From: an uncultured Lachnospiraceae bacterium
GTDB taxonomy: Bacteria; Bacillota; Clostridia; Lachnospirales; Lachnospiraceae
Length of the DNA: 64,000 nt
NCBI GenBank assembly: GCA_947173945.1
Contig: CAMWGV010000002.1
Coordinates: 62,001-126,000, forward strand
Direction: 5' to 3'
In this document: piece after piece, positions 8,401-46,349 of the stretch
How the letters are laid out: every line of letters starts with the position of its first letter
How positions within the stretch are numbered: the first letter of the stretch is position 1
Made by a program: the position numbers and the translations under genes
Notes under the pieces: generated by a model
The model's input: the letters and a program-made list of their open reading frames with translations, nothing else
The model's database searches: none
Told to the model about the DNA's origin: nothing

Positions 8401-9193
8401 AAGAAACCTTTTTCCTGTCCTCCTCCGTAATTGCCCGAAATACAGCACCACTGTTATATGCGATGAGATTCTCATAACGTTGAAACATCTCCGCCTGTTT
8501 TTGCGTGTAACTATTATGTGTCTGTTTTTTTGCAGACTCCTGTTTTGTCTGTGCCGCAAATACCTTTGAGAGTCCACCAAGTATTCCCCAGTTTTTACTT
8601 TGGCTTTTTTGTACTGTCTCTCCCGATTCACCCACCGATTTCTGATTTTTTCGGTTCAGATAGTAAAAATATGTATTATAGATTGCAAGTGCACCATTCG
8701 CATTTCCCTCTTTACATAAGGGAAGGGCACGTTCAAGAACTTCAAAGCTCTCACCAGCGGTTTCCCATATATATTTCATCTGTCTATAGGAGGCTATCCC
8801 TGATTCATTATAAAACTTGGCAAGCATAACAACCATCTTTTCCCGTGGCATCTTAGCGGCAAATTCCTCATCCTTACTCACTTCATAAAATTGGGAAATC
8901 GGGAACATGGCTGCTACACTATCGAAAAGGGCAAAGAGCACATTATACAGTTTGAAAACATCATCATATTTCTTCGTTTTCATTAGTCTGCCAAATATCT
9001 TTTCCATGTTCTGTGAAGTTTTGTTGTCAATCCTGTCTGCATCTATCTTCTTCGACTGCGGAATCCCAAAATCAGGCAGTTCAGACTCCCCCGAAAGATA
9101 GTCCTCCGCCATCTCAAGCTGCTTGGAATTCACACCTGCCTGTTCCAACAGCTCCATCACTTTTTCAACCCACATCTGTTTTTCGTTCTTCAT
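5432..9193 (-). CDS. DUF4132 (MolR/YehI-like) large protein, last gene of the MoxR-vWA operon
   Basis: A protein of about 1253 residues with no signal peptide. The middle has helical repeat character (residues 620-760, AVSRAWAIDILAQKG, VVKETMIKLLSERES). The C-terminal 350 residues carry the DUF4132 region (WRALFVANPIMHQFAISLIW, LIHPIELSEESKAKWEEQL). E. coli MolR/YehI has the same family and a similar size. ATG 9193 fits AGGAG better than the GTG six bases upstream. It ends an operon with MoxR, DUF5682, vWA and SWIM genes, which suggests a large scaffold or substrate-recognition protein for an AAA+ machine. The biochemical role is unknown. Confidence 0.82.
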   Translation of the reverse strand: MKNEKQMWVEKVMELLEQAGVNSKQLEMAEDYLSGESELPDFGIPQSKKIDADRIDNKTSQNMEKIFGRLMKTKKYDDVFKLYNVLFALFDSVAAMFPISQFYEVSKDEEFAAKMPREKMVVMLAKFYNESGIASYRQMKYIWETAGESFEVLERALPLCKEGNANGALAIYNTYFYYLNRKNQKSVGESGETVQKSQSKNWGILGGLSKVFAAQTKQESAKKQTHNSYTQKQAEMFQRYENLIAYNSGAVFRAITEEDRKKVSSFVKKNPDKDDIPAHIKALTGKYRIYDGPSYARIPRILLGSCAANFKASRLFRNFIRLCAYGKNFNETMECIWRVSLEFRDSFHAGNNQVVTTIRDRMGLVHADVNELTELTEWVWACKEDLLLDPVKLICWCGGKSNRFDQVLLRFADNEPDMYRKAIDTASIEVSGRLSELIKKERPQLYKKHYKEDSGKRDSMRQQLVEKILDSIDASKKAAVENYLMDGDSLEKLYGMEKELAVKSRYSVGYSWWISNYGSMIGHDDFYKRCIVLECVRKYYDDMLRFFTKNGWSDFNAEHLKELLKGLSDAGMSVARQWQVAAGMENSIYSTNLKNSFADVIKDVFSDYLQTNEEECIAAFATGSAVSRAWAIDILAQKGDLYKEQIFAYFSDSSKVVKETMIKLLSERESWMPEVLEKLASKKATERELAATVIGQSKGDYTAELNAALDKEKSSKVAGVIRSVLEKGGDVIPSDEKDAASYVKELHKGGKKRALAWAYETPFIEVHMQSSADAPDSSTVVDETYMQAILLAYSAMPVPGVNKEVLKLTDGLNQSELAQYVTELFDKWVQLGAEAKKKWVLYVAGIHGGTQIVEIMKHQIDEWAKNSRGAIAAEAVKALALNSSPTALLMVDGIARRYKYRQVRAAASKALEFAAEQLGLSTEELADRIVPDLGFNEQHERIFDYGERKFKVYITPALEIEIYDENDKKLKNMPAPGKRDNEVLAAESYAEFKQMKKQMKATVANQKLRLEAALSTERKWQTDKWRALFVANPIMHQFAISLIWGVYGEDGTVLATFRYMEDGSFNTEDEEEYQLPESGMIGLIHPIELSEESKAKWEEQLSDYEITQSVEQLGRPMFAMTEEEKHANTLERFGGMVLAAISLSGKLQTMNWYKGDTEDAGMYYSFYKEDVISGIGARINFSGAYVGDSYMAAENEQVTVYDAEFYKKASANEKEQKLTLGQLSPKYFSEIVYQLTKATATSEERNEAWRKER

Positions 9194-9210
9194 ACACACC
9201 TTCTCCTTCT

Positions 9211-11361
9211 TTACTTTTCATAATGGCCAAACTTCCAAGCCACTTCATCATATTTCACCTTAGATAATGCTTCTATAATATATAGATTCAGTCTGACAAA
9301 TGTTGCGACAAGCTCCTCCGAGCCTTGTATTGTCATATCATGCTTTCGCTTCTCCAATTCCTCAGCCAGCCTTCCCAGCATCTCTCCACCATAATGCAAG
9401 CCATATTGGAGAACCGTCGTTTGAACCCGCCTGATATCCTCTATTGTCTGCGCCTGTACTGTAGTAAAACCACTCTGCAATATCTGCGTCATCAGATTCC
9501 TACAGTTTTCAAGGCAATCCTTTAATCCCTCAACCTCCGGATTGTCCATATTATTTGCTGATTTATCTTCCTCAGTATGTCCATTCTGTTCTTTCTTCTT
9601 GCCTACATTTTTTCTACTCAAAAATATATCTGCTTTTGTCGTCTGTTCCTCGTAATATTCAATTGGGTAAAGCTTCAACATTCCCTCACTAATATATACT
9701 TTTCCAAAGAAACATGCCGGTTTCTTTTTCTTTTTTTCAATTTGCTGATACAGCCGCTCCAGATATTTAATATTATAGCTTTCCTCGTTACTGTAATCAA
9801 TATGTGCCTGAATTCTGTTTCCCCAAGCATCCTCCAGCATCATTAAAAATCGTTGTCTAACGGAATCAAAAAATGCTTCCGAAATCTTGTAAGGATAAAT
9901 AAACACAAGCTGCTCATATCCATTTCGCTCCCATACAGAGGCGTTTGTTGGAAACTTTTCCGAAAACAGCTGTGAAAAATTGTTATAACTGTTTTTTTCT
10001 ACTCCATCGAATGTAAAGGCTCTCGCTCCCACTATTTCCGCCTTTGCCTCTGATGTGGAAGACAGCCTGTTATCCTGATTAACCCGACATCCCGACAGAT
10101 GGATACGGGACTGTGCAAGCTCCTGCATACTACAGTCAAGACCCCACGGAGCCGCCTCTTTACCTGTTATTCTGACAGCACGCTTCCCTTCATAATACAG
10201 TGGTCGTGCATTTGTATACGTGTACCATTTTCCTGTGTTCTCCTCCAAAAAGTATATGACCTCACCTTCATAGCCTGTCTGCGATTTGAAATGACGATAT
10301 CCCATTCCCACTAAATCAAGGGGCTTGGATGGTACATATTCCGTTCTCATGCGCTCAGTTAACTTGTAAATTTCCCTGTCATCTGTAATATGTACGATAT
10401 GATTTGCTTCACCGTACAGCTTGATTACATCAGAAAGAAGCTTCTCAATCCGAAACGATGCATGCCTTCCAAAATACAGCCGCAGTTGTTCCGACAATGT
10501 CCGAAAATCCTTCTCAAAATCCGCCAATCGCTCATTGTGGCACATAATTGCAAACCGCTCACATCCGGACACAAGCTCCGGCGACAGCCTTGCAAGCCCG
10601 GCAGATATCATCTCCTCCAGCATCTGTTTTATATTCTCTGCAAGGGTTATAATACCGTCCTTATTCAGCTTTTCCTCGCCCTCACTCATAATCAGTTCAG
10701 CTATATTTTCTATGCTGATTTTTTCCTTATATATCTGATAGCGGAGTATAGCCTCTGCTCTGTGAACACAAAACTCCTTTCGACCACATGAGCATGTAGA
10801 ATATTCAATGGGAGCTAACAGCTTTACCTTTACCCCCTGATTTTCAAGCTCCACCGTTACAATAGAAGTCTCCGTTATGACAGCATGATTCTCCATTATT
10901 AAATGCTCATATATAGTTCGGAAAGAATTCATTCCCACCTGTTTTTTGATTGTTGAGAGAGGATAATCGAGCAGCTCAGAAAAATCCTCCGTCTGTTTCT
11001 CTGCTGAGGTTGAAAGCTCCCCCGCCTCTCTCGTTCGTTCTGAACAGGACATATTTTCGTCCTGCTTTACCTCTTCCGGTTCTGACTCAAATTCTCTCTT
11101 TACATAGAGAAATGCTGTAATGATATGTCTGCACATACTTCTTGACGGACAACTGCACGTACTCTCACCAAGCGGCATCACAAGTTTACAGGTCACATCA
11201 TCCACCGTCACCGTAAGCCCGTCCTCCGTCTCATCACATATTTTAATATCCGCAGTTTCAATATCCTTATAAGCCCTTTTGACGATTCCTTTGTTGGTTA
11301 ACCCTGTCAGATAATCGTCATCTATCCCACTCTGTCCGAGCATACGATACAATTCACTCAT
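9211..11361 (-). CDS. SWIM zinc-finger protein (YehQ-like)
   Basis: A protein of about 716 residues. It has two CxCx(n)CxH SWIM-type zinc-binding motifs near the N-terminus: CSCPSRSMCRH around residue 65 and CSCGRKEFCVH around residue 195. The rest is mostly helical with no recognisable enzyme domain, and a Lys-rich stretch lies near residue 550. SWIM domains bind nucleic acid or protein partners. ATG 11361 is chosen because GGAGG lies six bases before it; the frame itself extends slightly upstream. The DUF4132 gene follows after 17 bases. It corresponds to yehQ of the E. coli yehLMPQ-molR set. Confidence 0.85.
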   Translation of the reverse strand: MSELYRMLGQSGIDDDYLTGLTNKGIVKRAYKDIETADIKICDETEDGLTVTVDDVTCKLVMPLGESTCSCPSRSMCRHIITAFLYVKREFESEPEEVKQDENMSCSERTREAGELSTSAEKQTEDFSELLDYPLSTIKKQVGMNSFRTIYEHLIMENHAVITETSIVTVELENQGVKVKLLAPIEYSTCSCGRKEFCVHRAEAILRYQIYKEKISIENIAELIMSEGEEKLNKDGIITLAENIKQMLEEMISAGLARLSPELVSGCERFAIMCHNERLADFEKDFRTLSEQLRLYFGRHASFRIEKLLSDVIKLYGEANHIVHITDDREIYKLTERMRTEYVPSKPLDLVGMGYRHFKSQTGYEGEVIYFLEENTGKWYTYTNARPLYYEGKRAVRITGKEAAPWGLDCSMQELAQSRIHLSGCRVNQDNRLSSTSEAKAEIVGARAFTFDGVEKNSYNNFSQLFSEKFPTNASVWERNGYEQLVFIYPYKISEAFFDSVRQRFLMMLEDAWGNRIQAHIDYSNEESYNIKYLERLYQQIEKKKKKPACFFGKVYISEGMLKLYPIEYYEEQTTKADIFLSRKNVGKKKEQNGHTEEDKSANNMDNPEVEGLKDCLENCRNLMTQILQSGFTTVQAQTIEDIRRVQTTVLQYGLHYGGEMLGRLAEELEKRKHDMTIQGSEELVATFVRLNLYIIEALSKVKYDEVAWKFGHYEK

Positions 11362-35261: not shown

Positions 35262-36563
35262 TCAGATAAGTAAACTATTTGCATCAAGCAGGAATTCCTT
35301 AACGCCCATCATCAAATAACCATTTTCATCATAACGAGGTTTCATACTCTTTTCGACAATGATTATTTTTTTGAAAGAATCCATTGTCCGCTCAAAGGAC
35401 ATCGTTTCCTGTTCATACTTCTCCTGACTGGGAATAGCATATGCAGATTGGATATAATATTTTTTACTTCCCAGTGAAGCTATAAAATCAATTTCCCTCT
35501 GCACACGTATTTCTTTACCGTCCGCATCCTTCTCCCTTGATTCAACAGTTCCTACATCTACCTGATATCCTCTGTACCTGAGTTCATTATAGATGATGTT
35601 CTCCATGATATGAGTTCCCTCAATCTGTCTAAAGGACAAACGAGCATTGCGAAGTCCCACATCTTCAAAATAAATTTTATAAGGAGTACCGATATATTTT
35701 CTTCCTTTAACATTATATCTTTTCACACGGGTAAGCATAAATGCCTCTTCCGCATATCCAATATATCTATCCACCGTTGCATCACAGGTAGTCGTTCCAT
35801 GGACAGAATTCATTGTATATGCAATTTTTCTTGGATTAGTAAGTGTTGAGATACCAGAAGCAATTACATCCATTACCTCTCCAAGTGCAACCTCATCCTG
35901 TACAGAGTATCTGTTAATAATATCTCTCAAATATAAATTCTGCATTTGTGAACTCAGATAATTTGTCTTTTGCTCTTCCGTAGCCATAAGAGCCACTGCC
36001 GGAAGTCCACCATAAACCGAATAATCATCATACGCTTCACTTTTGTCACCCTTCTTAAAAACGTAATATTCAGAGAAAGACAATGGCAGTACATGAACTT
36101 CATCACCTCTCCCCTCAAACTCGGTCAATATGTCTTTCGATAAAAATTTGGAATTACTACCCGTCACATAAACATCGATATTATTCTTTCGAAGAAATCC
36201 ATTCAGTACGGATTCAAAAGCACCAAGTTTCTGAACTTCATCAAGCAGCAGATAATGCATTCCTTCCCCACTTATCTGTGGCATTAACCAATTGATAAAC
36301 TTGGAAGGGTCCACTTTACGGTTTTCTTTTTCATTATCAAGAACAATTGGATTCTCACCAATCCTTATTAAATCTTCAGCCGAATCAAACGCAAATTTAA
36401 TAATATGATCCGATGCAATATTTTCATCAATCAAATGATTATAAAACAGAGTGTTCAATAAATAAGATTTCCCGCTTCTTCGAATTCCGGTAATTACCTT
36501 AATAAATCCGTTGTGTTTTCTAACAATAAGTCGGTCAAGATATACATCTCTTTTTATTTCCAT
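35262..36563 (-). CDS. AAA_14/DUF4143 ATP-binding protein
   Basis: A protein of about 433 residues. The N-terminal AAA-type ATPase has Walker A TGIRRSGKSYLLNTLF at about 25-40 and Walker B YLLLDEVQKLG. VTGSNSKFLSKDILTEFEGR is sensor 1 with the conserved Ser and Arg. The C-terminal DUF4143 domain contains YFEDVGLRNARLSF and the nuclease-like IDFIASLGSKKYYIQSAYAI. Such proteins are abundant in gut Firmicutes; many are linked to toxin-antitoxin or defence roles, but function is unproven. ATG 36563 is chosen because GGAGG lies six bases before it. Confidence 0.88.
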   Translation of the reverse strand: MEIKRDVYLDRLIVRKHNGFIKVITGIRRSGKSYLLNTLFYNHLIDENIASDHIIKFAFDSAEDLIRIGENPIVLDNEKENRKVDPSKFINWLMPQISGEGMHYLLLDEVQKLGAFESVLNGFLRKNNIDVYVTGSNSKFLSKDILTEFEGRGDEVHVLPLSFSEYYVFKKGDKSEAYDDYSVYGGLPAVALMATEEQKTNYLSSQMQNLYLRDIINRYSVQDEVALGEVMDVIASGISTLTNPRKIAYTMNSVHGTTTCDATVDRYIGYAEEAFMLTRVKRYNVKGRKYIGTPYKIYFEDVGLRNARLSFRQIEGTHIMENIIYNELRYRGYQVDVGTVESREKDADGKEIRVQREIDFIASLGSKKYYIQSAYAIPSQEKYEQETMSFERTMDSFKKIIIVEKSMKPRYDENGYLMMGVKEFLLDANSLLI

Positions 36564-36572
36564 AGCGACCTC

Positions 36573-36665
36573 CATCTAATATTTTTGCCGTTGTTGTCAC
36601 TTTTCTAATATATTATACCCACCATAGAAAAATTACGCAACCATTTCATCTAATATTTTTGCCGT
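36573..36665. repeat. 19-bp exact direct repeat flanking an intergenic segment
   Basis: CATCTAATATTTTTGCCGT occurs at 36573-36591 and 36647-36665. The second copy encodes the last residues and stop of the HNH protein; the first sits just before the ATPase start. The 74-base offset suggests a small duplication or the scar of an insertion or excision. Confidence 0.75.
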
Positions 36666-37268: not shown

Positions 37269-37601
37269 TTACTTTTTCTTCTCCATATGTGCAATGCCCG
37301 TTGCATTCATCTGTGTAATCCACTTGGTTGGTGTCATTACAAAACGGTTTAACCCCGCTTCATTTTTAACCGCCTCGAATTGCACACGGTTAAAATCAGG
37401 ATTATGCAGTTCTTCCTAAACCCCTAAAAATTCTATTGTATTTCGATTACGCATCCAATTTTGAATTACAAATCTTAGGTCATCCTCATTTCGATATTTT
37501 GCAATATCCGTCAATGAAATAAATTCACTTTCAAAATTTGCTGTATAAATGCCTATATCAATGCCTTTCGCATGAATCGTTTCCTTAATTATTTTCCCCA
37601 T
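37269..37601 (-). pseudogene. KilA-N domain gene broken by a nonsense codon and truncated
   Basis: ATG 37601 has a perfect AGGAGG. The protein starts MGKIIKETIHAKGIDIGIY and runs to NTIEFLGV, where a TAG (37416-37418) replaces the Trp codon expected in the KilA-N motif. In the same frame the domain continues EELHNPDFNRVQFEAV and FVMTPTKWITQMNATGI up to TAA at 37269. It then lacks the usual C-terminal part and ends MEKKK. KilA-N proteins are phage-derived DNA-binding proteins. The gene is therefore inactive through both a point mutation and loss of its 3' end. Confidence 0.85.
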
Positions 37602-37719
37602 CGTTCCTCCTGTAATCATATTACAATTCATCAAACATATGTTCTTTATTAATTTTATCACAAATTTATTGTATTGCCAATTATTATTTTATTGAAGTTC
37701 ATGCCTACAAATGCACGAA

Positions 37720-37748
37720 ACCCTCTCGACCATGATGGTCGGGAGGGT
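37720..37748 (-). terminator. Hairpin terminator at the end of the RiPP operon
   Basis: ACCCTCTCGACCAT (37720-37733) pairs with ATGGTCGGGAGGGT (37735-37748) over 14 positions with one T-G pair. On the minus strand TTTCG follows, so the T-tract is weak. It lies 30 bases after the last gene of the cluster. Confidence 0.65.
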
Positions 37749-37778
37749 CTTTTGTCGTTTTCTATAAAAGGATATATC

Positions 37779-38267
37779 TCAAGCTTTCAGATTTCCAAGG
37801 ACATGAATAAAATGAATTATAATAAATGCACTACCCGTAATTAACAGTAACCAGTTTTTTCTCCACAGACCAATGCATATATAGTATAACGGTGGCATCA
37901 GAACTATAAAAAACATCATTACAAAAATTGATTGATGTCCGGTGAAATATAATCCCCATCCAAAAAAGTTTAGAAGTAGTACTGCAATGGCACAAATGAA
38001 TCCAAGCTTATTTACACCTACTCCAATGCTAAAAACTGATACATCCCTTTGAACAACAAAAGTCATTAGAAATATGCAACATGAACCTAATACTTTCTCA
38101 CAAATCTCCAAAACCATTGATGTTTCTTGCATATTCATAATCGGATTGCTTTCCATCTTAAATAAAGGCATTATTATGTATGGAATTTCCTGTACTACAA
38201 ATAACATTAATCCCAATATCCAAAAGCCTAAATACTGGTCACCAAACAATTTTATCCATCTGAACAT
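37779..38267 (-). CDS. Multi-pass membrane protein of the RiPP cluster
   Basis: A 162-residue protein with about five hydrophobic helices (YLGFWILGLMLFVVQEIPYI, VLGSCCIFLMTFVV, LGFICAIAVLLLNFFGWGLY, IFVMMFFIVLMPPLYYICIG, WLLLITGSAFIIIHFIHVLG). I recognise no transporter or protease motif. It is the last gene of the operon, 18 bases after the B12-type radical SAM gene, with GGAG before the start. As no ABC exporter is present nearby, it may take part in export or immunity of the modified peptide. That is inference from context. Confidence 0.7.
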   Translation of the reverse strand: MFRWIKLFGDQYLGFWILGLMLFVVQEIPYIIMPLFKMESNPIMNMQETSMVLEICEKVLGSCCIFLMTFVVQRDVSVFSIGVGVNKLGFICAIAVLLLNFFGWGLYFTGHQSIFVMMFFIVLMPPLYYICIGLWRKNWLLLITGSAFIIIHFIHVLGNLKA

Positions 38268-38285
38268 TTTGAGTTTCTCCTTTAC

Positions 38286-39524
38286 TTAGAATGGTGTTCC
38301 GTGAATCTGTATTTTTTTTTCAATAGTTGAACGGTGCGATTTGTAATACTCCAACAAAAAAGTTTCTTTTATCCTTTTTATATCATTCAACTTGAAATCA
38401 TTTAACCCATTTTCAAAACAAGCAAATATATGGTCTTCCGTTTTTAGTTTATCATCAAGTAATTCATACAAAGACGATCCTATCATGTAATCGAGATTTT
38501 TTATATTAACTTGGTCGAGCTCACATCTTTTTATCAGTTCAAATGTTTCATTGATGGTTACTTCAGTCTCCATCGGAGCACCAATGATAAAATTACCAAC
38601 CGTAAAAATACCTATTGAATTAGCATACCGAATAATGTGGGGGACTCTATCTATATTTATGTTCTTTCTGTAAAAACGCAAGATTTCTGCGTCTCCACTT
38701 TCGATGCCAAAACTGATAATTCTAACATTACATTGGTTTGCTAAGTCCAAAAATTCTTCATCAACGTTTGCCCAACTGCTGATAAAAAATCGAAGATTAT
38801 CATGTAAGTTTGCCTGTATAATTTTCTTCACTAATCTTTTAGCTCTGGAAAGATTGAATGTAAAGTTTTCATCAGTAATCCATACATTTTGAAAACCACT
38901 CGACTTGATGTTGCTTATTTCACCCAATACATAATCGTCAGAATGTGTAACATAGCAACACTGCCAACCTTTTCTTTGACAAAAGATGCAGGTGTTCTCG
39001 CAACCTTTTGATGTCTGCAAAAGTGTATTTTTTGCATTCTCCCGGTAATAAGGGATTTTCAAAAGCATATCTCGATTAACATACGGAAGTTCATCGTATG
39101 CTTTTATATGTGGGATTTGATTATTCTGCTCAAACTGATTGATACAATCAATAACATTGTTAATTTCATTTTCGGTAATTGTATGCTTGGCATTATCGAA
39201 ATTACTTTTGGTTATATAACAATAATTCCCATAAGCTATCGTTGTGATGTATTGATTCAAAATATCAATGATTCTGGCTGCGTGTAAAATGTTCTGAGAA
39301 CGCTTTAGGGCATAAGAATCACACTCTACGAGAGCAACATCAATATTCTCTCTGTGCACATATTCTATAAATTCACCCTCATCAAAAGATTCGCAGGAAA
39401 AATCTTTTATATGCACACGATGGTATTTAGATAAAACCGTAGCTATTGTCAGCATTTCATAAGAAAATCCAAATCGTGATTTTTTACGTTTATCCGGTTT
39501 TGGATAAATCATGAGAATGTTCAT
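38286..39524 (-). CDS. B12-binding-type radical SAM enzyme
   Basis: A protein of 412 residues. The first 150 residues look like a B12-binding (Rossmann) domain (MNILMIYPKPDK, IDVALVECDSYALKRSQNIL). The radical SAM core starts near residue 165 with the cluster motif CENTCIFC in TSKGCENTCIFCQRKG (Cx3Cx2C). It continues with VWITDENFTFNLSRAKRLV, IISFGIESGDAEILRFYRKN and VGNFIIGAPMETE. Related enzymes perform methylations, rearrangements and oxidative cleavages. Within this operon it is a candidate second tailoring enzyme for the peptide. The gene ends four bases before that of the alpha/alpha-toroid protein begins. The canonical DxHxxG cobalamin motif is not evident. Confidence 0.85.
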   Translation of the reverse strand: MNILMIYPKPDKRKKSRFGFSYEMLTIATVLSKYHRVHIKDFSCESFDEGEFIEYVHRENIDVALVECDSYALKRSQNILHAARIIDILNQYITTIAYGNYCYITKSNFDNAKHTITENEINNVIDCINQFEQNNQIPHIKAYDELPYVNRDMLLKIPYYRENAKNTLLQTSKGCENTCIFCQRKGWQCCYVTHSDDYVLGEISNIKSSGFQNVWITDENFTFNLSRAKRLVKKIIQANLHDNLRFFISSWANVDEEFLDLANQCNVRIISFGIESGDAEILRFYRKNINIDRVPHIIRYANSIGIFTVGNFIIGAPMETEVTINETFELIKRCELDQVNIKNLDYMIGSSLYELLDDKLKTEDHIFACFENGLNDFKLNDIKRIKETFLLEYYKSHRSTIEKKIQIHGTPF

Positions 39525-39527
39525 AAC

Positions 39528-40325
39528 CTATACCTCCAAATATTTTTCCGCCTGAGATAATGCATATAACCCCCATGAGGCACCGTCTTCAATTTCATGA
39601 TATGCCCATATTCCACTCTTTAACTGGGTTCTGCATAAATAATTATAAGCTCTCTCGATTGTTTCTTTATAGCCATCATCTTGCATACTAATTAGTGCAA
39701 GCAATGCAACCGCCGTACAATATACATTTTCCCCCGCAGGATGACTGAGCCATGGAGCGAATCCTCCGCTTGGTTCCTGTTGTGTGCTCAACCAAGCAGC
39801 TGTTTCATAAATAAGTCTTCTGTTTGTCTTTGGGGTACATTGGTTTTTATTAAAAGCTAAAATAGTATATGCTGCTTTATATGTCAAAGAATTTAACTCT
39901 AAACTCCATGTTTTCTCTAACCATTCCAGATTTTGCTCAGTTGCAATCTCTGGAATTAAATAAAGAGCAAGCCCAGTTACTGGGATTCGATGCATATCTC
40001 TCTTGCTTCTTCCGAAGCCTTCCTCATCGCCATTATTCGATACGAGCCATTCCATTGCTCGATTGCGCTTTTCTTTGTGTTGAGGGTAGAATTCCAAAAA
40101 TTTGATATTCCACAGGGTGTCCGTATTACCGATAAATCCGCCATCATCTTTCTGAGAAGAAAGACATTTCTCAATAATTTTCTTTGGAATATCGTGCGGG
40201 GAAAGTCCTGACATAAGAAGCAACGCACAAGTTTTGGTTATACGTCGAATTTCGATATTCTTTCTAAACATCTCATTACACATATTCAGCAGCGACATTA
40301 TCGCTCTATTCTCGTATTTAGACAT
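39528..40325 (-). CDS. Alpha/alpha-toroid (prenyltransferase/squalene-cyclase-repeat-like) protein
   Basis: A 265-residue protein composed of helix-pair repeats with the QW/GGF signature: CLSSQKDDGGFIGNTDTLWN, WLSTQQEPSGGFAPWLSHPA and RTQLKSGIWAYHEIEDGASW. The same fold is used by prenyltransferase beta subunits, terpene cyclases and complement-type proteins. It is far too short for a full triterpene cyclase (600+ residues), and no DXDD motif is visible. It overlaps the synthetase-like gene by eight bases, so the two are translationally coupled. In the cluster it might bind the peptide or a small ligand. Confidence 0.75.
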   Translation of the reverse strand: MSKYENRAIMSLLNMCNEMFRKNIEIRRITKTCALLLMSGLSPHDIPKKIIEKCLSSQKDDGGFIGNTDTLWNIKFLEFYPQHKEKRNRAMEWLVSNNGDEEGFGRSKRDMHRIPVTGLALYLIPEIATEQNLEWLEKTWSLELNSLTYKAAYTILAFNKNQCTPKTNRRLIYETAAWLSTQQEPSGGFAPWLSHPAGENVYCTAVALLALISMQDDGYKETIERAYNYLCRTQLKSGIWAYHEIEDGASWGLYALSQAEKYLEV

Positions 40326-41250
40326 TTTTATCCTCCAATTTTATTCTTGGGAAGAATCGTGTATCACTAATTCTATCTGCCCCAACAATCCATCGTACAA
40401 GTCTTTCAATTCCTAAGCCGAAGCCGCATCTGTCTGTTTTGATTTTTTTTACAGAATCAACGTACCATTGAATTGTTTCCGCTTTTGCAAGGTGAATTTT
40501 GTTTTGAAGCAAATCAACATCATTTGTTCGCTCACAGCCTTCACACAATTCTCCATATGACTCTGGGAGCAAGATATTCATTGCAATGCTTTTTCCATTT
40601 CCTTTTTTCTTGGAAGTCCATGTAGCAAACTTGGTAGGATAATCGACAATAATAACTATCTCTTTTAACTGCTTAGATAGTAAATAATCTATGTCGCTAA
40701 TATCCCTGCATTTATCGTAATCGCCCTCGGATAGGTTCGATACAAAATCATCATATGTCATGATTCGAGGGGAGAGTTCATCCCTGAGCCGCATTATCCT
40801 TGCCATCAGATTCGACGATGCCTTTATAGAGGAGGATTCCAACAGTCGATTCAAAATAAACTCCAGATAAGATTGAATTAGCTCTATCATATCATCCAAG
40901 GAGCAGTTCAACATCTCTGCCTCTAAAATGTTAAACTCCACCAAATGATTTAGAGTATCTCTTTCGTCACGGAAGCATCTCGATATAGTAAATACCTTGT
41001 TGAACTCAGAAGCATACATACCCATAAATAATGCATTACTGGATGACAATGAATACTTCCCATTATACAAAGGAACATAAATCTCTGATTTTTTGTTTGC
41101 GATCGCCTCATGGAGAACAGGTGGTTCAACAAAAATAAAATCCCTGTCAAAAAAGAACTGATTTGTAAATCGCTCTACTTCGCTCCTTACAAGAACTGCT
41201 TGTCTTTTTTTATCTGTTATCGTCCAGTAATATGCATTATCTGTGTTCAC
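40318..41250 (-). CDS. Class II aminoacyl-tRNA-synthetase-like enzyme without anticodon domain
   Basis: A protein of 310 residues that matches only the catalytic core of AsnRS/AspRS. Motif 2 is ISRCFRDERDTLNHLVEFNI. VDYPTKFATWTSKKKGN corresponds to the amino-acid pocket loop, and motif 3 is GFGLGIERLVRWIVG. There is no N-terminal OB-fold anticodon-binding domain. The usual QSxQ adenylation segment is replaced by SSSNALF, and the IIGGSQRE stretch by LCEGCERT. Such stand-alone cores activate an amino acid and pass it to something other than cognate tRNA (asparagine synthetase-like, or EpmA-like modifiers). GTG 41250 follows GGAGAATAAAC. Confidence 0.85.
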   Translation of the reverse strand: MNTDNAYYWTITDKKRQAVLVRSEVERFTNQFFFDRDFIFVEPPVLHEAIANKKSEIYVPLYNGKYSLSSSNALFMGMYASEFNKVFTISRCFRDERDTLNHLVEFNILEAEMLNCSLDDMIELIQSYLEFILNRLLESSSIKASSNLMARIMRLRDELSPRIMTYDDFVSNLSEGDYDKCRDISDIDYLLSKQLKEIVIIVDYPTKFATWTSKKKGNGKSIAMNILLPESYGELCEGCERTNDVDLLQNKIHLAKAETIQWYVDSVKKIKTDRCGFGLGIERLVRWIVGADRISDTRFFPRIKLEDKNV

Positions 41251-41252
41251 GT

Positions 41253-42443
41253 TTATTCTCCGTTTCTTACCCAGTTAATAATTCTGGGTGCTTCAGGGTT
41301 TTCAGCTACATAGCCATTTTTACTTAACATATTTATCATTTTATAATTAGATGCATTTGTTTTCGCCATGTTTTTATGAAAAGCTCGATGGTAATAATCA
41401 AGCAGTTTAGTAGCGACACCTTTACCTCTACACTCCGGAAGAACCAGTATTTCTTCCAACAAAGAAAACCCTTCCGGTCGTCCACTTTCTCGCAAGAATC
41501 CTACGACTGTGTTCTTATGTACTGCAACATAACAATGTCTTTCACTTCTGACAATTTGTCTTATCAACGATGCTTTATTGTTGTATGCTAAGAATTTTTG
41601 GTCTTCACTACTTATTGAATTAAACATCTCCATTATGGAATCGACATCCGTCTTTTTTGCTCTGCGAACAAAAACATCATTTTTAAGATTCAACAATCTT
41701 TCTATGTTTCTATAAAAAATTAGTTCGCTATGTTCATGGTCTAAGTGTCGTTTAAGAACATTAAGCTCATCGGTGTAACTATATCTTTCGCCCATGCAAT
41801 TTTTTCCAAACGGATAATCCGAAGCATAAATCACTCTGTCATATCCAAGAATTTCGCATACATTTATTATTGATTGTAAATCGCCAACGGTAGATAAATC
41901 CATATATAAATTCGGATATTTCCTTAAAGCCAATGCATTATCAACCGTCTGCTCACCGGTATACAGATGTCCTCTGCCCATATGCGCTAAGATAATATTG
42001 ATATTCGGCGCATATCTAAATATTTGTTCGATTTGCTTAACTTTATTTGCAAATTTTGCATGGATGATAAGTGGGAGGTTAGCATCCTCAATTTGTTGCA
42101 GTTCCTTTTTTATACTTTTAATGTCAATGTCCTCATAAAGAAGATGTAATTTAACACCTTGAAAGCCTTTTTTTAAGTTTTCTTCTAAGTGCTCATCAAT
42201 CCTACAAAAGGGTATTAGTCTATCTGGATAACTTTGGTATGCTTCAAAAACATAACTGTTTGTTTTTTCTGTATTAAAATCCTTGTGAGGAATCGGAAGA
42301 ATAATAGCCTTATCGACCCCATTCATATCCATCAGTTCGATTATCTCATCATATGTGCAACACAAATCATACTTAAACTCACTATTTTCCTTATCGCAAA
42401 AAGATTGCATCCCTATATGCATATGTGCATCAATAAATTTCAT
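41253..42443 (-). CDS. Amidohydrolase-type metal hydrolase fused to a GNAT acetyltransferase
   Basis: A protein of about 396 residues. Residues 1-255 form an amidohydrolase-2 TIM barrel (FIDAHMHIG, PLIIHAKFANK, IILAHMGRGHL, VIYASDYPFGK), with the metal His residues and terminal Asp. Residues 265-396 are a GNAT domain (VFVRRAKKTDVDSIMEMFNS, EILVLPECRGKGVATKLLDY, ASNYKMINMLSKNGY). Hydrolysis and N-acylation on one chain is uncommon. ATG 42443 fits GGAGGAGG seven bases earlier. The gene follows the precursor peptide gene and ends two bases before the synthetase-like start. Confidence 0.88.
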   Translation of the reverse strand: MKFIDAHMHIGMQSFCDKENSEFKYDLCCTYDEIIELMDMNGVDKAIILPIPHKDFNTEKTNSYVFEAYQSYPDRLIPFCRIDEHLEENLKKGFQGVKLHLLYEDIDIKSIKKELQQIEDANLPLIIHAKFANKVKQIEQIFRYAPNINIILAHMGRGHLYTGEQTVDNALALRKYPNLYMDLSTVGDLQSIINVCEILGYDRVIYASDYPFGKNCMGERYSYTDELNVLKRHLDHEHSELIFYRNIERLLNLKNDVFVRRAKKTDVDSIMEMFNSISSEDQKFLAYNNKASLIRQIVRSERHCYVAVHKNTVVGFLRESGRPEGFSLLEEILVLPECRGKGVATKLLDYYHRAFHKNMAKTNASNYKMINMLSKNGYVAENPEAPRIINWVRNGE

Positions 42444-42466
42444 TTCCTTGCCTCCTCCATGCACAG

Positions 42467-42500
42467 GAAAGGGGACTCTTTATGCAAGAGTACCCCTTTC
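42467..42500 (-). other. Stem-loop between the precursor peptide gene and downstream enzymes
   Basis: GAAAGGGGACTCTT (42467-42480) pairs with AAGAGTaCCCCTTTC (42486-42500) with one bulged base, giving a 14-bp stem. No T-run follows on the minus strand. In RiPP operons such a hairpin after the precursor stabilises its mRNA and limits readthrough, so that the precursor is made in excess. Confidence 0.7.
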
Positions 42501-42510
42501 TCATTACGAT

Positions 42511-42633
42511 TTAGTTGCAATTACAATTTGTGCAACCGAAGCACCAATTACCTTCACTAAAATTTTCCCAAACATCTTTAGTGAAAAGCACTTCGTCTTC
42601 TTCTTGAATGATAGGTGCAGAATACTCTTTCAT
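42511..42633 (-). CDS. Candidate RiPP precursor peptide, 40 residues, four Cys
   Basis: ATG 42633 follows a perfect AAGGAGG. The 40-residue product starts MKEYSAPIIQEEDEVLFT, an acidic leader-like half, then KDVWENFSEGN. It ends WCFGCTNCNCN, where four Cys are spaced 2, 2 and 1. The gene lies directly downstream of the PqqD-like and SPASM radical SAM genes and is followed by a stem-loop. Cys-rich C-termini of this type are the core of sactipeptides/ranthipeptides made by SPASM enzymes. Whether thioether links form, and where a leader would be cut, is not visible. No protease gene is nearby. Confidence 0.82.
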   Translation of the reverse strand: MKEYSAPIIQEEDEVLFTKDVWENFSEGNWCFGCTNCNCN

Positions 42634-42635
42634 AG

Positions 42636-42911
42636 TTAAACCTCCTTCAAAATGTTTTTATCGACAGCAGTCTGTATCATTAAAGAACAGTCTGCAATCA
42701 ATCGTTCTCTATCGACTGCATACTCTTTCTCAACAATTGAAACCATCGCTCCAACTGTCGATACTTCTCTAAACGAATCCAAAATCAAGTATGAAACCTC
42801 GTTTAGGCGATACTGATTGCCATTTTCAATATTTAATGCCCAGCATTTGCTGTCGATTTTTCTTAATACGATTTTGTCATTAATCTGAAATCTTTGTGTT
42901 AAATCCAACAT
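42636..42911 (-). CDS. PqqD-like RiPP recognition element protein
   Basis: A 91-residue stand-alone PqqD-family protein: ALNIENGNQYRLNEVSYLIL and VEKEYAVDRERLIADCSLMI are the beta-strand and helix regions that bind a leader peptide. It overlaps the radical SAM gene by 13 bases, and its stop is two bases before the precursor start. It should bring the precursor to the SPASM enzyme. Confidence 0.9.
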   Translation of the reverse strand: MLDLTQRFQINDKIVLRKIDSKCWALNIENGNQYRLNEVSYLILDSFREVSTVGAMVSIVEKEYAVDRERLIADCSLMIQTAVDKNILKEV

Positions 42912-43924
42912 TGAACGTCCTCCCCCATATAATCACCAGAAGTTGCATAAGCAATCGCTCTACAACCACCACAGCGTTCTACATTAACGCAGCCATGACA
43001 TTTCCCTTTCAAATTATTCTTGTCTCTGATTTTCCATAGAACATCGCTATCATACCAAATTTTGAATATTCCATCTTCAAGAATATTGCCGATTGGTATT
43101 TCAAGGCGTCTACACGGTAATACTGTGCCATCCCATAAAATAGCCAAAGATGTCAATCCCACCGGACAAAAACCGCCTATTTTCTCATTGTTTGTGCAAT
43201 CCAAGTGTGCCGTATTAATCCATAGCGGACGCAAACGTCTGACAGTAAGTTTTGAATTTACGTCATTCGCACGCACTGTAATTTCTTCATAAATAGCTTT
43301 GATTTCTTCTTTGCTGAGAACATCATCTAAGCTACTATGCCCACACGGGGTAACTCTTTCGACGGTTACTGCATTTATATTGCATTTCTCTGCAAAATCA
43401 ATAATCTGTGAAGCATATTCCTTGTTCTGACGCATCAAAGTAAACATAAAGGATACTTCAATGTTATTAGCTTGAAGCTTTTTGATTACTTCCAAGACCT
43501 TACGAAATGTTCCTTTCCCCCTAACGCCATCATGGATTTCTTCAATCGGACCATCAAGAGAAATTTGAATTTGATGTAGCTTTTTCGATTGTATCAATGC
43601 AGCAATATGTTCTTCCGTAATGCAGGTTCCGTTTGTTAAAATATCAAACTGCTTAATTTCGTCCGATTTTTCCAGAAAGTCTACTAACGTAAGAATATGT
43701 GGACTTAAGAAAGGTTCTCCGCCGGTTAAAGATATTCTACCCAACATATTCCATTTTCTTAAAGCCATCGTGATTTGATTTCCAATTTGCAACAATTTAT
43801 CTAATGGTAAATCTTCATAGTGGTAACCCTCTTGATAACAATGAGCACATCTCAAGTTACAGCTATTCATAAAATGCCATTGAAAATAGAATTCTTCTTT
43901 TTTCATATTTTCTACTAACTCCAT
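42899..43924 (-). CDS. SPASM-domain radical SAM peptide-modifying enzyme
   Basis: A protein of 341 residues. The radical SAM cluster is CNLRCAHC in MNSCNLRCAHCYQEGYH, followed by SLTGGEPFLSPHILTL and the ISLDGPIEEIHDGVRG strand. The SPASM domain at residues 245-341 provides Cys for auxiliary clusters: GGFCPVGLTSLAI, GTVLPCRRLEIPIGNI and GKCHGCVNVERCGGCRA, ending CW. Such enzymes form thioether, C-C or related bonds on Cys-rich peptides. The direct neighbours are a PqqD-like protein and a four-Cys precursor. It starts ten bases inside the end of the regulator gene. Confidence 0.93.
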   Translation of the reverse strand: MELVENMKKEEFYFQWHFMNSCNLRCAHCYQEGYHYEDLPLDKLLQIGNQITMALRKWNMLGRISLTGGEPFLSPHILTLVDFLEKSDEIKQFDILTNGTCITEEHIAALIQSKKLHQIQISLDGPIEEIHDGVRGKGTFRKVLEVIKKLQANNIEVSFMFTLMRQNKEYASQIIDFAEKCNINAVTVERVTPCGHSSLDDVLSKEEIKAIYEEITVRANDVNSKLTVRRLRPLWINTAHLDCTNNEKIGGFCPVGLTSLAILWDGTVLPCRRLEIPIGNILEDGIFKIWYDSDVLWKIRDKNNLKGKCHGCVNVERCGGCRAIAYATSGDYMGEDVQCWI

Positions 43925-44223
43925 TCGTGTATTTTGAATAAGACACTTTCGGAAAAACCAATATTTTTAACGAAAGCATTATTATACAATCCGCGTTCAT
44001 AAAGTATCTTCGCCGTCTCATTCCTTAGAGAGAAGAAAGAAACCATTGCAATTAAAATAGATCTTGTTAGTTTTTTCTCCTTATGTTCCATATTAATAAC
44101 AGATTGTCGAGATACACCTATTACTTTAGCAAAATCCTCTTGTCTCTGATTCAACGCATTTCTTAATTTAGGGAGGGTATCACACATCAAATCAATACAC
44201 TCCATAATTCCACTATTATCCAT
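43915..44223 (-). CDS. XRE-family regulator of the RiPP cluster
   Basis: A protein of 102 residues, first gene of the operon. The helix-turn-helix is LRNALNQRQEDFAKVIGVSR with QSVINMEHKEKKLTRSILIA. GAGGTG precedes ATG 44223. It overlaps the radical SAM gene by ten bases. A palindrome 35-57 bases upstream is the likely operator, so it probably regulates the whole cluster. Confidence 0.88.
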   Translation of the reverse strand: MDNSGIMECIDLMCDTLPKLRNALNQRQEDFAKVIGVSRQSVINMEHKEKKLTRSILIAMVSFFSLRNETAKILYERGLYNNAFVKNIGFSESVLFKIHEWS

Positions 44224-44257
44224 ATTCCACCTCTGTTTTTTTATAAAATATCATGCG

Positions 44258-44280
44258 AAATGTAAAAAGTAAATACATTT
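44258..44280. promoter_or_regulatory. Candidate operator of the RiPP operon
   Basis: AAATGTA (44258-44264) and TACATTT (44274-44280) form an inverted repeat with a nine-base spacer, 35 bases upstream of the XRE regulator start. A TTGACA (minus strand) lies near 44305-44310 but its -10 box is poor. Confidence 0.45.
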
Positions 44281-44557
44281 GAGCTGACTTTTCAAAAAAT
44301 AATTTGTCAATGCTCTGTGAACACTTATTTTAATATTATGGCATAATTCTTTTCTAAGTATCTGTAAATATAATGTTTGTTCTGACCACAAATTAACCTT
44401 CCCTTATAGTAGTTTACGACTCATTCTGCCTACTGGGCGATGTTCCTCGCTAATGGAAGGAAGCCGACAGATGCAAAGCAGGAATTTGTCAATGACATAT
44501 CTTGTCACTGGATAATTAGATAGTGACAAAATCATATTCTATTTTTCTTATAGTAAA
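44281..44557. other. Non-coding gap upstream of the RiPP operon
   Basis: This gap is part of the 415 bases between two minus-strand operons. TTGTCACT (44502-44509) and AGTGACAA (44522-44529) form an inverted repeat. A plus-strand frame reading YWAMFLANGRKPTDAKQE (about 44429-44482) has no ribosome binding site and may be a gene remnant. Nothing else is evident. Confidence 0.4.
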
Positions 44558-44598
44558 AGCAGCGACCATCGACTATCAAACAATCGGTGATCGCTGCT
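44558..44598 (-). terminator. Intrinsic terminator of the RlmD operon
   Basis: AGCAGCGA (44558-44565) pairs with TCGCTGCT (44591-44598), with CATCGA/TCGGTG pairing inside. On the minus strand TTTTACT follows. It lies 40 bases after the last gene of the operon. Confidence 0.8.
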
Positions 44599-44638
44599 AC
44601 ATATTCTGTTAATCAATTAGTCGATACTCTGGGATTCC

Positions 44639-44929
44639 TTAAATCATGCCAAGGTGTAGAAGCTCCTCCATAATTCCCACCTCTTTTTCCGGCGGACACT
44701 TAGGCTGTTTCGCATCCTCGTACTTCGGTTTATTATAGTTTTCTCGCTCAATGATACCATTCTTCTGTTTCACTTGAGCGATATACAAGCTGCTGACCTT
44801 GAACCCAGTATGCTCCAGCACATATGCCTTGATTTCCTCATAGGTAGCCCTACTCTCCGCAGCCGTCAAGCCAAGCTCATCCATCTGAAGCTTCACCTCA
44901 ATATGATACTCGACATTCAGTTTGGACAA
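44639..44929 (-). CDS. Small conserved companion of RlmD
   Basis: A 96-residue protein. YEEIKAYVLEHTGFKVSSLY, IAQVKQKNGIIERENYNKPK and QPKCPPEKEVGIMEELLHLG are, as I recall, a module seen next to or fused to RumA-type methyltransferases in Clostridia; function is unknown. It overlaps the end of rlmD by 32 bases in another frame, so it is translationally coupled or derived from a fused ancestor by a frameshift. Its exact start is uncertain. Confidence 0.65.
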   Translation of the reverse strand: MSKLNVEYHIEVKLQMDELGLTAAESRATYEEIKAYVLEHTGFKVSSLYIAQVKQKNGIIERENYNKPKYEDAKQPKCPPEKEVGIMEELLHLGMI

Positions 44930-46349
44930 TAGACACTACACATTCTATATGCCCCGTCCCCGGGAACTCATCTATCGCACACGCCCTCGTAACCTCATAA
45001 CCCCTATTCGTTATTACTTCAAGGTCTCTTGCAAGTGAGGTTGGCTTGCAGCTTATATACACCATTTCATTTACGTTAAATGCCAAAATTTTTTCCAGTG
45101 CCTTAGGGTTTATTCCGTCTCTTGGTGGGTCTAATATGATAACGTCAGGCTTATCCTCCACCAAATCAATTGCCTTAAGAACATCCCCTGCAATAAATTC
45201 ACAGTTATCAAGACCGTTGAGCTTCGCATTTTCCTTTGCTGCCTCCACAGCCTCCTCGACTATCTCTATTCCAATGACCTTTTTTGCAACAGGTGCCATC
45301 ATTTGGGCAATCGTTCCCGTACCACTGTACAAGTCAAAAATGATTTTATCTTTCGCACCATTCATAATAGCCTTTTCATTTAATCTGTTACCCATGACGC
45401 TTCCCGACATGATGTACTCCCTCGCCTTGGAGTAAAGCACTTCACATCCCTTTGTATTTGTTTGGAAAAACGAAAACGGAGAAATCCTGAATTTCAGCCC
45501 CATAACTTCCTCGATAATATAATCTTTTCCAGTGAGAACATGCATTTTATCACATGCCACCACATCACCCAAAGAATCATTTTCCGTATATAAAACGCCT
45601 GCCACATTGCCGTCAAAGCCTGCATTATCTGCCAACATAACAAGCCCATCCGCAAACTCATGCAAAACGGTTTCCTTATCAAATCCATAATTCCCCCACT
45701 GGGTTGACGCAACAAGATTTACAAGAAATTCTCCTGTTGCAAAGGATTGCCGCACAACAAGATTACGGAGAATTCCCTCATGCCTCATCTTATGATAATA
45801 AGGCACTTCCCTGCTCTTAAAAAAATCCAAGGTAAAATCAAGTATTTTACCCCATTCCTTTTTTATAATACGGCAGTTACTTACCTGCAATATATCATGA
45901 AAGCTTCCTTTCTTATGAAGCCCTAAGCACAAAGGACCGTCCTTAAACTCGTCCCCAAAGGTAAACTCCATTTTGTTCCTGTATTCGTACCTCATTGGAG
46001 ATGCAACTATACCCTCCCAAATATCCCCAACATATTTTCCGATAAGCTTTTTTACCATCTTTTCTTTTAATAAAAGCTGATTTTCATATGACATAGTCTG
46101 ATAGGAGCATCCTCCACACATCCCAAAATAAGGACACTCCGGCGACTCATTTTCCATTGGAGATTTTTCCAGAACTTCAAGAAGCTTTCCCTCTGCCATT
46201 CCACTCTTTTTTTTCGTAATCATAAAACGCACTCTTTGACCCTCAAGTGCACCCTTTATAATCACCTTTCTATCCTCGTATGTAAGACTTCCCTTGTTAG
46301 GAAAATCGTAGCATGTTATTATCCCCTCGCATATATCGCCCTTTTTCAA
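44898..46349 (-). CDS. rlmD: 23S rRNA (uracil-C5)-methyltransferase RlmD/RumA type
   Basis: A protein of 483 residues. The N-terminal TRAM domain covers residues 1-60. An iron-sulfur Cys cluster follows (CPYFGMCGGCSYQ). The methyltransferase core has FSFFQTNTKGCEVLY, SAM motif FDLYSGTGTIAQMM, DPPRDGINPKALEK and the catalytic Cys in VYISCKPTSLARDLEV. It methylates a uridine of 23S rRNA through a covalent Cys-RNA intermediate. Clostridia often have several paralogues, so the exact uridine is not certain. It follows the phosphodiesterase gene by 20 bases. Confidence 0.92.
   Translation of the reverse strand: MKKGDICEGIITCYDFPNKGSLTYEDRKVIIKGALEGQRVRFMITKKKSGMAEGKLLEVLEKSPMENESPECPYFGMCGGCSYQTMSYENQLLLKEKMVKKLIGKYVGDIWEGIVASPMRYEYRNKMEFTFGDEFKDGPLCLGLHKKGSFHDILQVSNCRIIKKEWGKILDFTLDFFKSREVPYYHKMRHEGILRNLVVRQSFATGEFLVNLVASTQWGNYGFDKETVLHEFADGLVMLADNAGFDGNVAGVLYTENDSLGDVVACDKMHVLTGKDYIIEEVMGLKFRISPFSFFQTNTKGCEVLYSKAREYIMSGSVMGNRLNEKAIMNGAKDKIIFDLYSGTGTIAQMMAPVAKKVIGIEIVEEAVEAAKENAKLNGLDNCEFIAGDVLKAIDLVEDKPDVIILDPPRDGINPKALEKILAFNVNEMVYISCKPTSLARDLEVITNRGYEVTRACAIDEFPGTGHIECVVSIVQTECRVSY

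Follow-up and report, generated by a model that had tools for sequence, protein, structure and literature searches.

Among ribosomally synthesized and post-translationally modified peptides (RiPPs), radical S-adenosylmethionine (SAM) enzymes with a SPASM domain and a cysteine-rich precursor often make antimicrobials, and some sactipeptide and ranthipeptide pathways include a PqqD-type partner. Activation of a peptide through its last residue is known from microcin C, where PMC12250964 describes how MccB, a ThiF-like enzyme and not one of the class II synthetase fold, forms an acyl-adenylate of the C-terminal asparagine and then a succinimide. Here, we analyse a gene cluster at 37779-44223 on the minus strand of a 64,000-nucleotide stretch (the window) of contig CAMWGV010000002.1 from an uncultured Lachnospiraceae bacterium. 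In this cluster a SPASM enzyme, a PqqD-like protein and a cysteine-rich precursor are encoded together with a protein resembling asparaginyl-tRNA synthetase (AsnRS). The cluster is almost certainly a conserved, mobile RiPP-type pathway, and we put forward, far more tentatively, a role for the AsnRS-like enzyme in modifying the C-terminus of the precursor.

The open reading frame (ORF) list of the window contains nine ORFs in this interval, with short gaps or overlaps between neighbours, as a first-pass annotation made from the sequence alone had described. Domains were assigned by Pfam and NCBIfam profile searches of the nine proteins, and its labels (regulator, SPASM enzyme, PqqD, amidohydrolase-GNAT, class II synthetase, toroid and second radical SAM protein) were borne out by Pfam. 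The tight operon opens with an XRE-type regulator of 102 residues (43915-44223; HTH_3, 5e-6; PADLOC 'control protein', 2.3e-6), which overlaps the start of the gene for the SPASM radical SAM enzyme (341 residues, 42899-43924; Radical_SAM and SPASM, 5.2e-10). These are followed by a PqqD-like peptide-binding protein (91 residues, 42636-42911; PF05402, 5.4e-10), the 40-residue precursor (42511-42633), an amidohydrolase fused to a GNAT domain (403 residues, 41253-42464; Amidohydro_2 1.8e-18, GNAT 5.2e-10), the AsnRS-like catalytic domain (310 residues, 40318-41250; class II tRNA-synt_2, 5.4e-39), an alpha/alpha-toroid protein (265 residues, 39528-40325; Prenyltrans, 1.7e-8) and a B12-type radical SAM protein (412 residues, 38286-39524; Radical_SAM, 8.5e-17).

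To find close relatives, a segment of 81 residues from the AsnRS-like protein was used to scan a collection of species genomes; the patterns were exact eight-residue stretches, so that only close relatives could be found. Four of the 34 pattern matches encode a relative of the protein, and all four lie in metagenome-assembled genomes: Candidatus Blautia stercorigallinarum (L044), a Ruminococcus sp. from goat cecum (L045), a Roseburia sp. from buffalo colon (L046) and a Phascolarctobacterium sp. from water deer colon (L047). L045 is near-identical to L044 and was left out of the later protein and precursor alignments and of the residue comparison of AsnRS-like proteins. By tblastn, all eight genes are collinear with the window in L044, L045 and L046 and seven are in L047, where the regulator, matched in the other three, had no match at E < 0.05. 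The proteins of the four relatives are 71-95% identical to those of the window (76-84% for PqqD), and the reading frames are intact in all five loci. Since Phascolarctobacterium belongs to a class other than the window's, the 90% identity of its SPASM enzyme points to a transfer of the cluster between classes, unless the metagenome contig was misbinned. MobA/MobL relaxases are encoded near the cluster in L044, L045 and L046, L044 and L046 also encode confirmed large serine recombinases, and the element of L046 is flanked by the two parts of a TraG-type transfer gene (same family, profile positions 44-238 and 246-442). In L044 and L045 (12768-13043) and in L046 (12826-13053) the gene after that of the B12-type protein encodes a small protein with a pair of CxxC motifs; none was seen in the ORF lists of the window and L047.

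The ninth ORF, a membrane protein of 162 residues with about five hydrophobic segments (37779-38267, minus strand, downstream of the operon), fared differently. Profile searches in Pfam and NCBIfam returned nothing for it at E up to 1, and tblastn against the 19-20 kb surrounding the cluster in L044-L047 gave nothing at E < 0.05 in all four relatives. For that reason this gene, which the first-pass annotation had counted as a cluster member, probably lies outside the conserved pathway unit.

Three more distant versions were identified. The first (L052, genome G1236) encodes a creatininase-family protein, a methyltransferase, SPASM enzyme, PqqD (3e-15), precursor, amidohydrolase-GNAT, toroid and B12-type proteins, with identities to the window of 61% (SPASM), 35% (amidohydrolase-GNAT), 52% (toroid) and 46% (B12-type). 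Its GNAT domain is retained (1.3e-4), and no AsnRS-like gene was detected in the cluster or elsewhere in the genome at 1e-8. The creatininase-family protein, which could be a peptidase, matches TIGR03964 (MftE) at 9.9e-18 and 64.5 bits against a cut-off of 172, and genes that by eye resemble an ABC exporter set lie upstream of the cluster on the opposite strand. The second version (L067, genome G473) comprises SPASM enzyme (50% identical), PqqD (1.3e-8), precursor, a beta-propeller protein, a 448-residue protein, an extra radical SAM protein, an amidohydrolase without GNAT domain, a methyltransferase, toroid and B12-type proteins. It showed no AsnRS-like match in the stretch at 0.01, and G473 was absent among the phylum genomes matched by the AsnRS-like protein at 1e-28. 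The beta-propeller is of the LVIVD type, and it and the 448-residue protein, which has no Pfam match, lie at 7060-9814 inside the operon. A GNAT-like tail on the extra radical SAM protein was a by-eye impression and was dropped (E 0.17).

The third version (L056) lies on a 133-kb IMG/VR contig (UViG_3300001567_000262) with phage tail and lysis genes. It encodes SPASM enzyme, PqqD-like protein, precursor, amidohydrolase-GNAT, AsnRS-like and toroid proteins (45% identity for the SPASM enzyme, 25% for the amidohydrolase-GNAT, 27% for the AsnRS-like and 44% for the toroid protein) and a B12-type gene broken across reading frames; the PqqD-like protein was assigned from its place in the cluster and a match to the L067 protein (1e-18). 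On the upstream side are genes for a baseplate-like protein (9.3e-7) and an amidase/endolysin (1.1e-18), and on the downstream side an amidoligase (2e-89) and other phage families, and on account of these flanking families we call the contig phage-like, though it may be a prophage or a mixed contig. On this contig (L056, L058 and L059) the cluster sits between lysis/tail genes and a group of amidoligase, glutamine amidotransferase and gamma-glutamyl cyclotransferase genes. A methyltransferase is present in the operon of both lineages without an AsnRS-like gene (L052 and L067) and in neither of the two lineages with one. This apparent exchange is a lead, drawn from four lineages and from methyltransferases that are weakly alike (21% over 84 residues, E 0.007).

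The precursor, MKEYSAPIIQEEDEVLFTKDVWENFSEGNWCFGCTNCNCN in the window, is unmatched in Pfam and gave only weak hits to unrelated NCBIfam families (0.05 or worse), and its gene stands two genes after that of the SPASM enzyme in all eight loci (window, L044-L047, L052, L056 and L067). Seven precursors representing four lineages were aligned; their last 11 residues, WCFGCTNCNCN, are identical, and the leader follows a looser pattern (Y..P.........F....WE.F..G). L056 was found with the core pattern itself, so its core match was preset; the other three lineages were found through proteins. The core codons of six precursor sequences differ pairwise by 2-7 nucleotides, all of them synonymous, while the identity of the amidohydrolase to that of the window falls to 25-35% in the distant versions, and this combination looks like strong purifying selection on the peptide. 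A core kept constant beside so divergent an enzyme suggests that the pathway very probably makes one defined product and not a diversifying bacteriocin. Such invariance is unusual among RiPPs of this sort, and a core kept to the letter suggests a compound with an exact role. The four invariant cysteines of the core are compatible with thioether links. Between the precursor and amidohydrolase genes an RNA hairpin (42465-42502 in the window, minus strand) was predicted for the close relatives from a consensus fold of five rows, two of them identical (-22.96 kcal/mol, 16 pairs, covariation term -0.16); two of the 16 pairs are changed on both sides and five are broken in one row, so that covariation support is weak. 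A hairpin also follows the L052 precursor (z = -2.73), and the structure is likely a partial terminator or processing site.

The best solved match of the AsnRS-like enzyme is AsnRS (1.4e-27), and it is 26-32% identical to true AsnRS. The window protein has no OB-fold match in Pfam and scores 143.3 bits with the asnS model (cut-off 342.6), and in the gut versions the chain leaves no room for an anticodon domain. The pocket was examined in five distinct proteins from the clusters, set against 38 true AsnRS (those with loci given, among 96 other matches) and against AsnRS, aspartyl-tRNA synthetase (AspRS), AsnA and EpmA of E. coli; the AsnRS rows L029 and L038 were left out of the comparison with the E. 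coli proteins. The ATP residues, namely motif 2 Arg94, ATP-site Glu234 and motif 3 Arg283, are kept in all five. PMC7387524 reports that class II enzymes bind ATP via two arginines and that the amine is bound in 92% of structures, and that in AsnRS the amide of asparagine receives hydrogen bonds from Glu-233 and Arg-377 (the paper's numbering, 144 apart). In E. coli AsnRS these two correspond to Glu251 and Arg396, 145 apart, and it is on this spacing that we match Glu110 and Arg241, also kept in 5/5 cluster proteins, to the pair reading the asparagine amide. The flipping-loop glutamate is replaced by Asn (Lys in L056) and the glutamine of the SGQL motif by Ala in all five, whereas both Glu and Gln are present in 38/38 AsnRS. 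The AspRS equivalents, Glu171 and Gln195, presumably hold the alpha-amine. With the side-chain readers of AsnRS kept and the holders of the free amine lost, the pocket fits an asparagine whose amine is in a peptide bond. Taken together with the invariant last asparagine of the precursor, this leads us to propose that the enzyme adenylates the precursor C-terminus. That an AsnRS-derived enzyme activates the C-terminal carboxylate of this residue is a tentative proposal, to which we give rather less than an even chance.

Several points weigh against this assignment. A third pocket glutamate (after the position of AspRS Lys198), present in 38/38 AsnRS, is Gly or Thr in all five cluster proteins, and the GGS motif has become EGC, which may mean that a different side chain is bound. 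E. coli EpmA and AsnA, whose substrates are free amino acids, are likewise without the glutamine and the loop glutamate, so the loss of these residues in the AsnRS-like enzyme is no proof of a peptidyl substrate. In L056 an N-terminal OB-fold is retained (PF01336, 1.5e-6), and tRNA binding is therefore possible there. The AsnRS-like gene is missing from two of the four lineages, which makes its step inessential for the shared core, and the exchange with the methyltransferase amounts to two lineages against two, with methyltransferases as dissimilar as noted above. That the protein is the host's own or a resistant tRNA synthetase is unlikely, as the OB-fold and the pocket residues are missing.

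The pathway that we favour would make a compound from the last eleven residues of the precursor. PqqD would present the leader and the SPASM enzyme would, judging from its family, install radical-made cross-links in the cysteine-rich core. The AsnRS-derived enzyme, no longer charging tRNA, would read the side chain of the C-terminal asparagine and adenylate its alpha-carboxylate, much as the unrelated MccB activates the last asparagine of microcin C, after which the activated end could close to an imide or join a nucleophile. In versions without the AsnRS-like enzyme a class I methyltransferase may do the equivalent job by esterification, and the amidohydrolase-GNAT, toroid and B12-type radical SAM proteins would carry out further steps. 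The conserved unit, the invariant core and the kept and lost residues are observed, whereas all of the chemistry is inferred. As no exporter is conserved, the product probably acts inside the cell. As a whole, the account of one peptide-derived compound made by these steps is the best explanation at hand, though we would still put it below even odds.

The AsnRS-like enzyme might instead activate a free amino acid, perhaps an unusual one, and attach it to the peptide jointly with the GNAT domain, as EpmA does for EF-P or by tRNA-dependent transfer, which is close to the added amino acid that the first-pass annotation had suggested as a feature of the product. The intact ATP residues, the GNAT domain in the neighbouring protein, the further pocket changes, the anticodon-binding-type domain of L056 and the example of EpmA and AsnA all agree with this. 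Free asparagine should, however, need the two alpha-amine positions lost from every cluster protein despite an AsnRS-like Glu110/Arg241 pair, and L052 keeps its GNAT domain in a genome without the AsnRS-like gene. We therefore regard it as unlikely, including as the main role of the synthetase-like enzyme. A redox or metal cofactor derived from the peptide, comparable to pyrroloquinoline quinone (PQQ) or mycofactocin and employed within the cell that makes it, would account for the invariant core, the lack of a conserved exporter and the PqqD and SPASM pair, and the creatininase-family gene of L052 belongs to the family of the mycofactocin peptidase MftE. Yet no oxidoreductase partner gene is conserved alongside in the ORF lists of the relatives and distant versions, the SPASM enzyme scores 91.6 bits against the mycofactocin maturase cut-off of 265, and the distribution is sparse and mobile, which is unusual for a cofactor. 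This explanation, too, seems improbable to us.

A bacteriocin or Trojan-horse antibiotic against other bacteria would suit the type of enzyme and precursor, the mobile distribution, the microcin C-like terminal asparagine and the exporter-like genes beside L052. It is harder to reconcile with a unit in which no exporter or immunity gene is conserved and with a core that is constant between lineages, as bacteriocin cores usually vary, and we consider it quite unlikely. The cluster occurs sparsely, with a single match besides its own genome among 299 genomes sampled from the phylum, and the B12-type gene of L056 is broken, both of which would fit a decayed or chance assembly of unrelated genes; the same order in several genera, the intact frames and 71-95% protein identity of the close relatives and the synonymous-only change in the core contradict it, and its probability is negligible.

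The rarity of the cluster was assessed in genomes, plasmids and viral contigs. The toroid protein was found in its own genome alone among 392 genomes of the order, and the SPASM enzyme at 1e-45 in three of 291 genomes of the class: its own, L042 (another context) and L043, compared by tblastn only, which has no other cluster gene in its 4 kb. The AsnRS-like protein matched 27 of 61 related genomes at 1e-15, its own and 26 with longer frames (at least 376 residues) like true AsnRS, and 71 of 398 genomes of the phylum at 1e-28, its own and 70 with frames of at least 385 residues resembling true AsnRS. Within the genus 7/36 genomes matched at 1e-15 in frames of 468-481 residues, as true AsnRS, and 29/36 gave none (many of the genomes are incomplete). 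Alignment queries retrieved two of 299 genomes of the window's phylum (its own and G473, the only match among three genomes of the latter's family), two of 250 in the class of Phascolarctobacterium (itself and G1236) and two of 151 in the family of G1236 (itself and G1390, with a different RiPP cluster). In viral contigs the core DNA pattern gave one stretch, L056, and the SPASM alignment retrieved the same contig; single-protein scans and the toroid alignment gave nothing useful there, nor did the toroid search in plasmids. The AsnRS-like protein matched 22 plasmid records, all below 60% identity, those annotated among the 20 listed being AsnRS, AsnA or AspRS, and nine unannotated phage records, also below 60%; the SPASM enzyme matched three plasmid records at 27-29%. 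L048 and L049 were rejected as relatives (24% identity, unrelated). A second, distant SPASM-type match (5.7e-31) lies elsewhere in the window's genome (G000 C31:27727-28743). The first-pass annotation would have been refuted by later genes of the operon occurring elsewhere without a RiPP core; where such genes were sought on their own, all relatives of the AsnRS-like and toroid proteins besides true AsnRS sat with the RiPP core, and the amidohydrolase, searched alone in plasmids only, gave 19 records, none covering 80% of the query.

The remaining enzymes carry conserved residues of their own. In a seven-row alignment covering the four lineages, the SPASM proteins are 45-94% identical to that of the window and keep ten cysteines, namely C22, C26 and C29 of the CNLRCAHC motif and C253, C271, C309, C312, C318, C321 and C339. 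Matches of the enzyme to viperin profiles in PADLOC (1.5e-19) were set aside as general radical SAM similarity. The presumed metal residues of the amidohydrolase (D12, H14, H16, H135, H161 and D216) are invariant in seven rows. Among solved structures it best matches a predicted amidohydrolase of the dihydroorotase family (1.9e-10), and decarboxylases are among its other matches; opening of a cyclic imide or amide would suit the dihydroorotase likeness and is our guess at its function. In the toroid protein H195, C203 and H243 are invariant in seven rows. The first-pass annotation called it terpene-cyclase-like, and here the fold stands and the identity does not, as the DxDD motif is absent in 7/7 proteins and TIGR01787 gives 25.5 bits against a cut-off of 322.7; metal or peptide binding is a guess. 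The B12-type protein keeps C175, C179 and C182 of its CxxxCxxC motif in 6/6 rows. Its best solved matches are an apramycin-pathway oxidoreductase (6fd2, 1.3e-9), a radical SAM protein (9ccb), a tryptophan 2-C-methyltransferase (6wte) and TokK. It had no B12-binding match in Pfam, and most family matches span only about residues 110-380; the resemblance to B12-type enzymes thus lies within the radical SAM domain, and cobalamin binding is putative.

The operon is flanked by an ATPase gene (35262-36575; AAA_14/DUF4143) with small unassigned genes on one side and by rlmD (44898-46349, named by eye) on the other. The sibling species G028 aligns to the window on both sides of this slot but has Gabija in place of the operon (GajA 1.7e-260, GajB 1.5e-223). 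The rlmD side was fetched in 22 sibling species, five of which have less than 1.6 kb of sequence there, and selected proteins of six siblings picked by eye were scanned with PADLOC; several others show ordinary genes by eye. All six scanned siblings gave matches (at least 6/22 slots; window 37400-44950; L068, L070, L073, L081, L083 and L084): besides Gabija in G028, an AriA-like ATPase with an unmatched 276-residue partner in G036, type III restriction and AbiL-like genes in G018, a type II methyltransferase with Vsr in G014, a type I methyltransferase in G001 and HEC-06/Orf5-like proteins in G035. The slot beside rlmD thus often holds defence genes, which is no demonstration that the cluster is one. 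That an AsnRS rebuilt as a peptidyl-asparagine activator yields an intracellular product serving conflicts between bacteria, phages and mobile elements fits this location, the mobilizable elements and the phage-like contig, and is nonetheless a doubtful reading to which we assign a small probability. The phage-like and mobile-element carriage makes such a role testable. Activation of the C-terminal asparagine, if true, would be a new way to build the end of a peptide and would show clearly that a synthetase can be converted to peptide modification.

Searches of the open literature, with subscription papers and preprints mostly outside their reach, found no described system or class with this gene combination, in agreement with the first-pass annotation; the core strings returned one unrelated plant paper, and a term search of reviews of radical SAM RiPP enzymes gave no mention of a tRNA synthetase, amidohydrolase, acetyltransferase, squalene or toroid. 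The pathway is likely undescribed in print. The same annotation had seen a sactipeptide/ranthipeptide-type core without exporter or leader protease. A RiPP-type core of precursor, PqqD and SPASM enzyme holds, while the plain class label does not, since among the best 25 of 81 NCBIfam families no curated cut-off was reached (SbtM 149/350, PapB 79/340 bits). The conserved unit indeed lacks an exporter, with L052 differing in its possible peptidase and the exporter-like set.

Compared with described systems, the cluster shares with sactipeptide and ranthipeptide pathways of the ACGX type (TIGR04340) the SPASM enzyme and the cysteine-rich C-terminal core, and differs in its maturase score (147.5 bits against a cut-off of 400), its four further enzymes and its invariant core. 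With mycofactocin and PQQ it has in common a short precursor, a PqqD-like and a SPASM protein and, in one version, a creatininase-family gene; those pathways have a core of two residues, whereas this cluster has an eleven-residue core, no dehydrogenase or glycosyltransferase, and scores below the family cut-offs. The different RiPP cluster of G1390 (L057, 7126-11097) resembles it in a 43% identical SPASM enzyme, a PqqD-like protein and a cysteine-rich precursor of 43 residues ending TCRGCSSCHACRG; its tailoring genes differ, being by eye a second radical SAM enzyme, an AsnB-like protein and a glycosyltransferase, and no tblastn match at 0.001 was obtained there for the amidohydrolase, toroid, AsnRS-like or B12-type proteins. 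Microcin C offers a peptide ending in asparagine and the ATP-driven activation of that residue that is proposed here, but its pathway has an exporter and no radical SAM enzymes, and a Pfam search at E up to 1 gave no ThiF match for any of the nine proteins in the window. Finally, the cluster enzyme shares the class II core and the intact ATP residues with AsnRS, AsnA, EpmA and archaeal AsnRS-like proteins, and is set apart from AsnRS and its paralogues by lacking both alpha-amine residues while keeping the Glu/Arg pair as in AsnRS, by the lack of an OB-fold in the gut versions and by being encoded in a RiPP operon.

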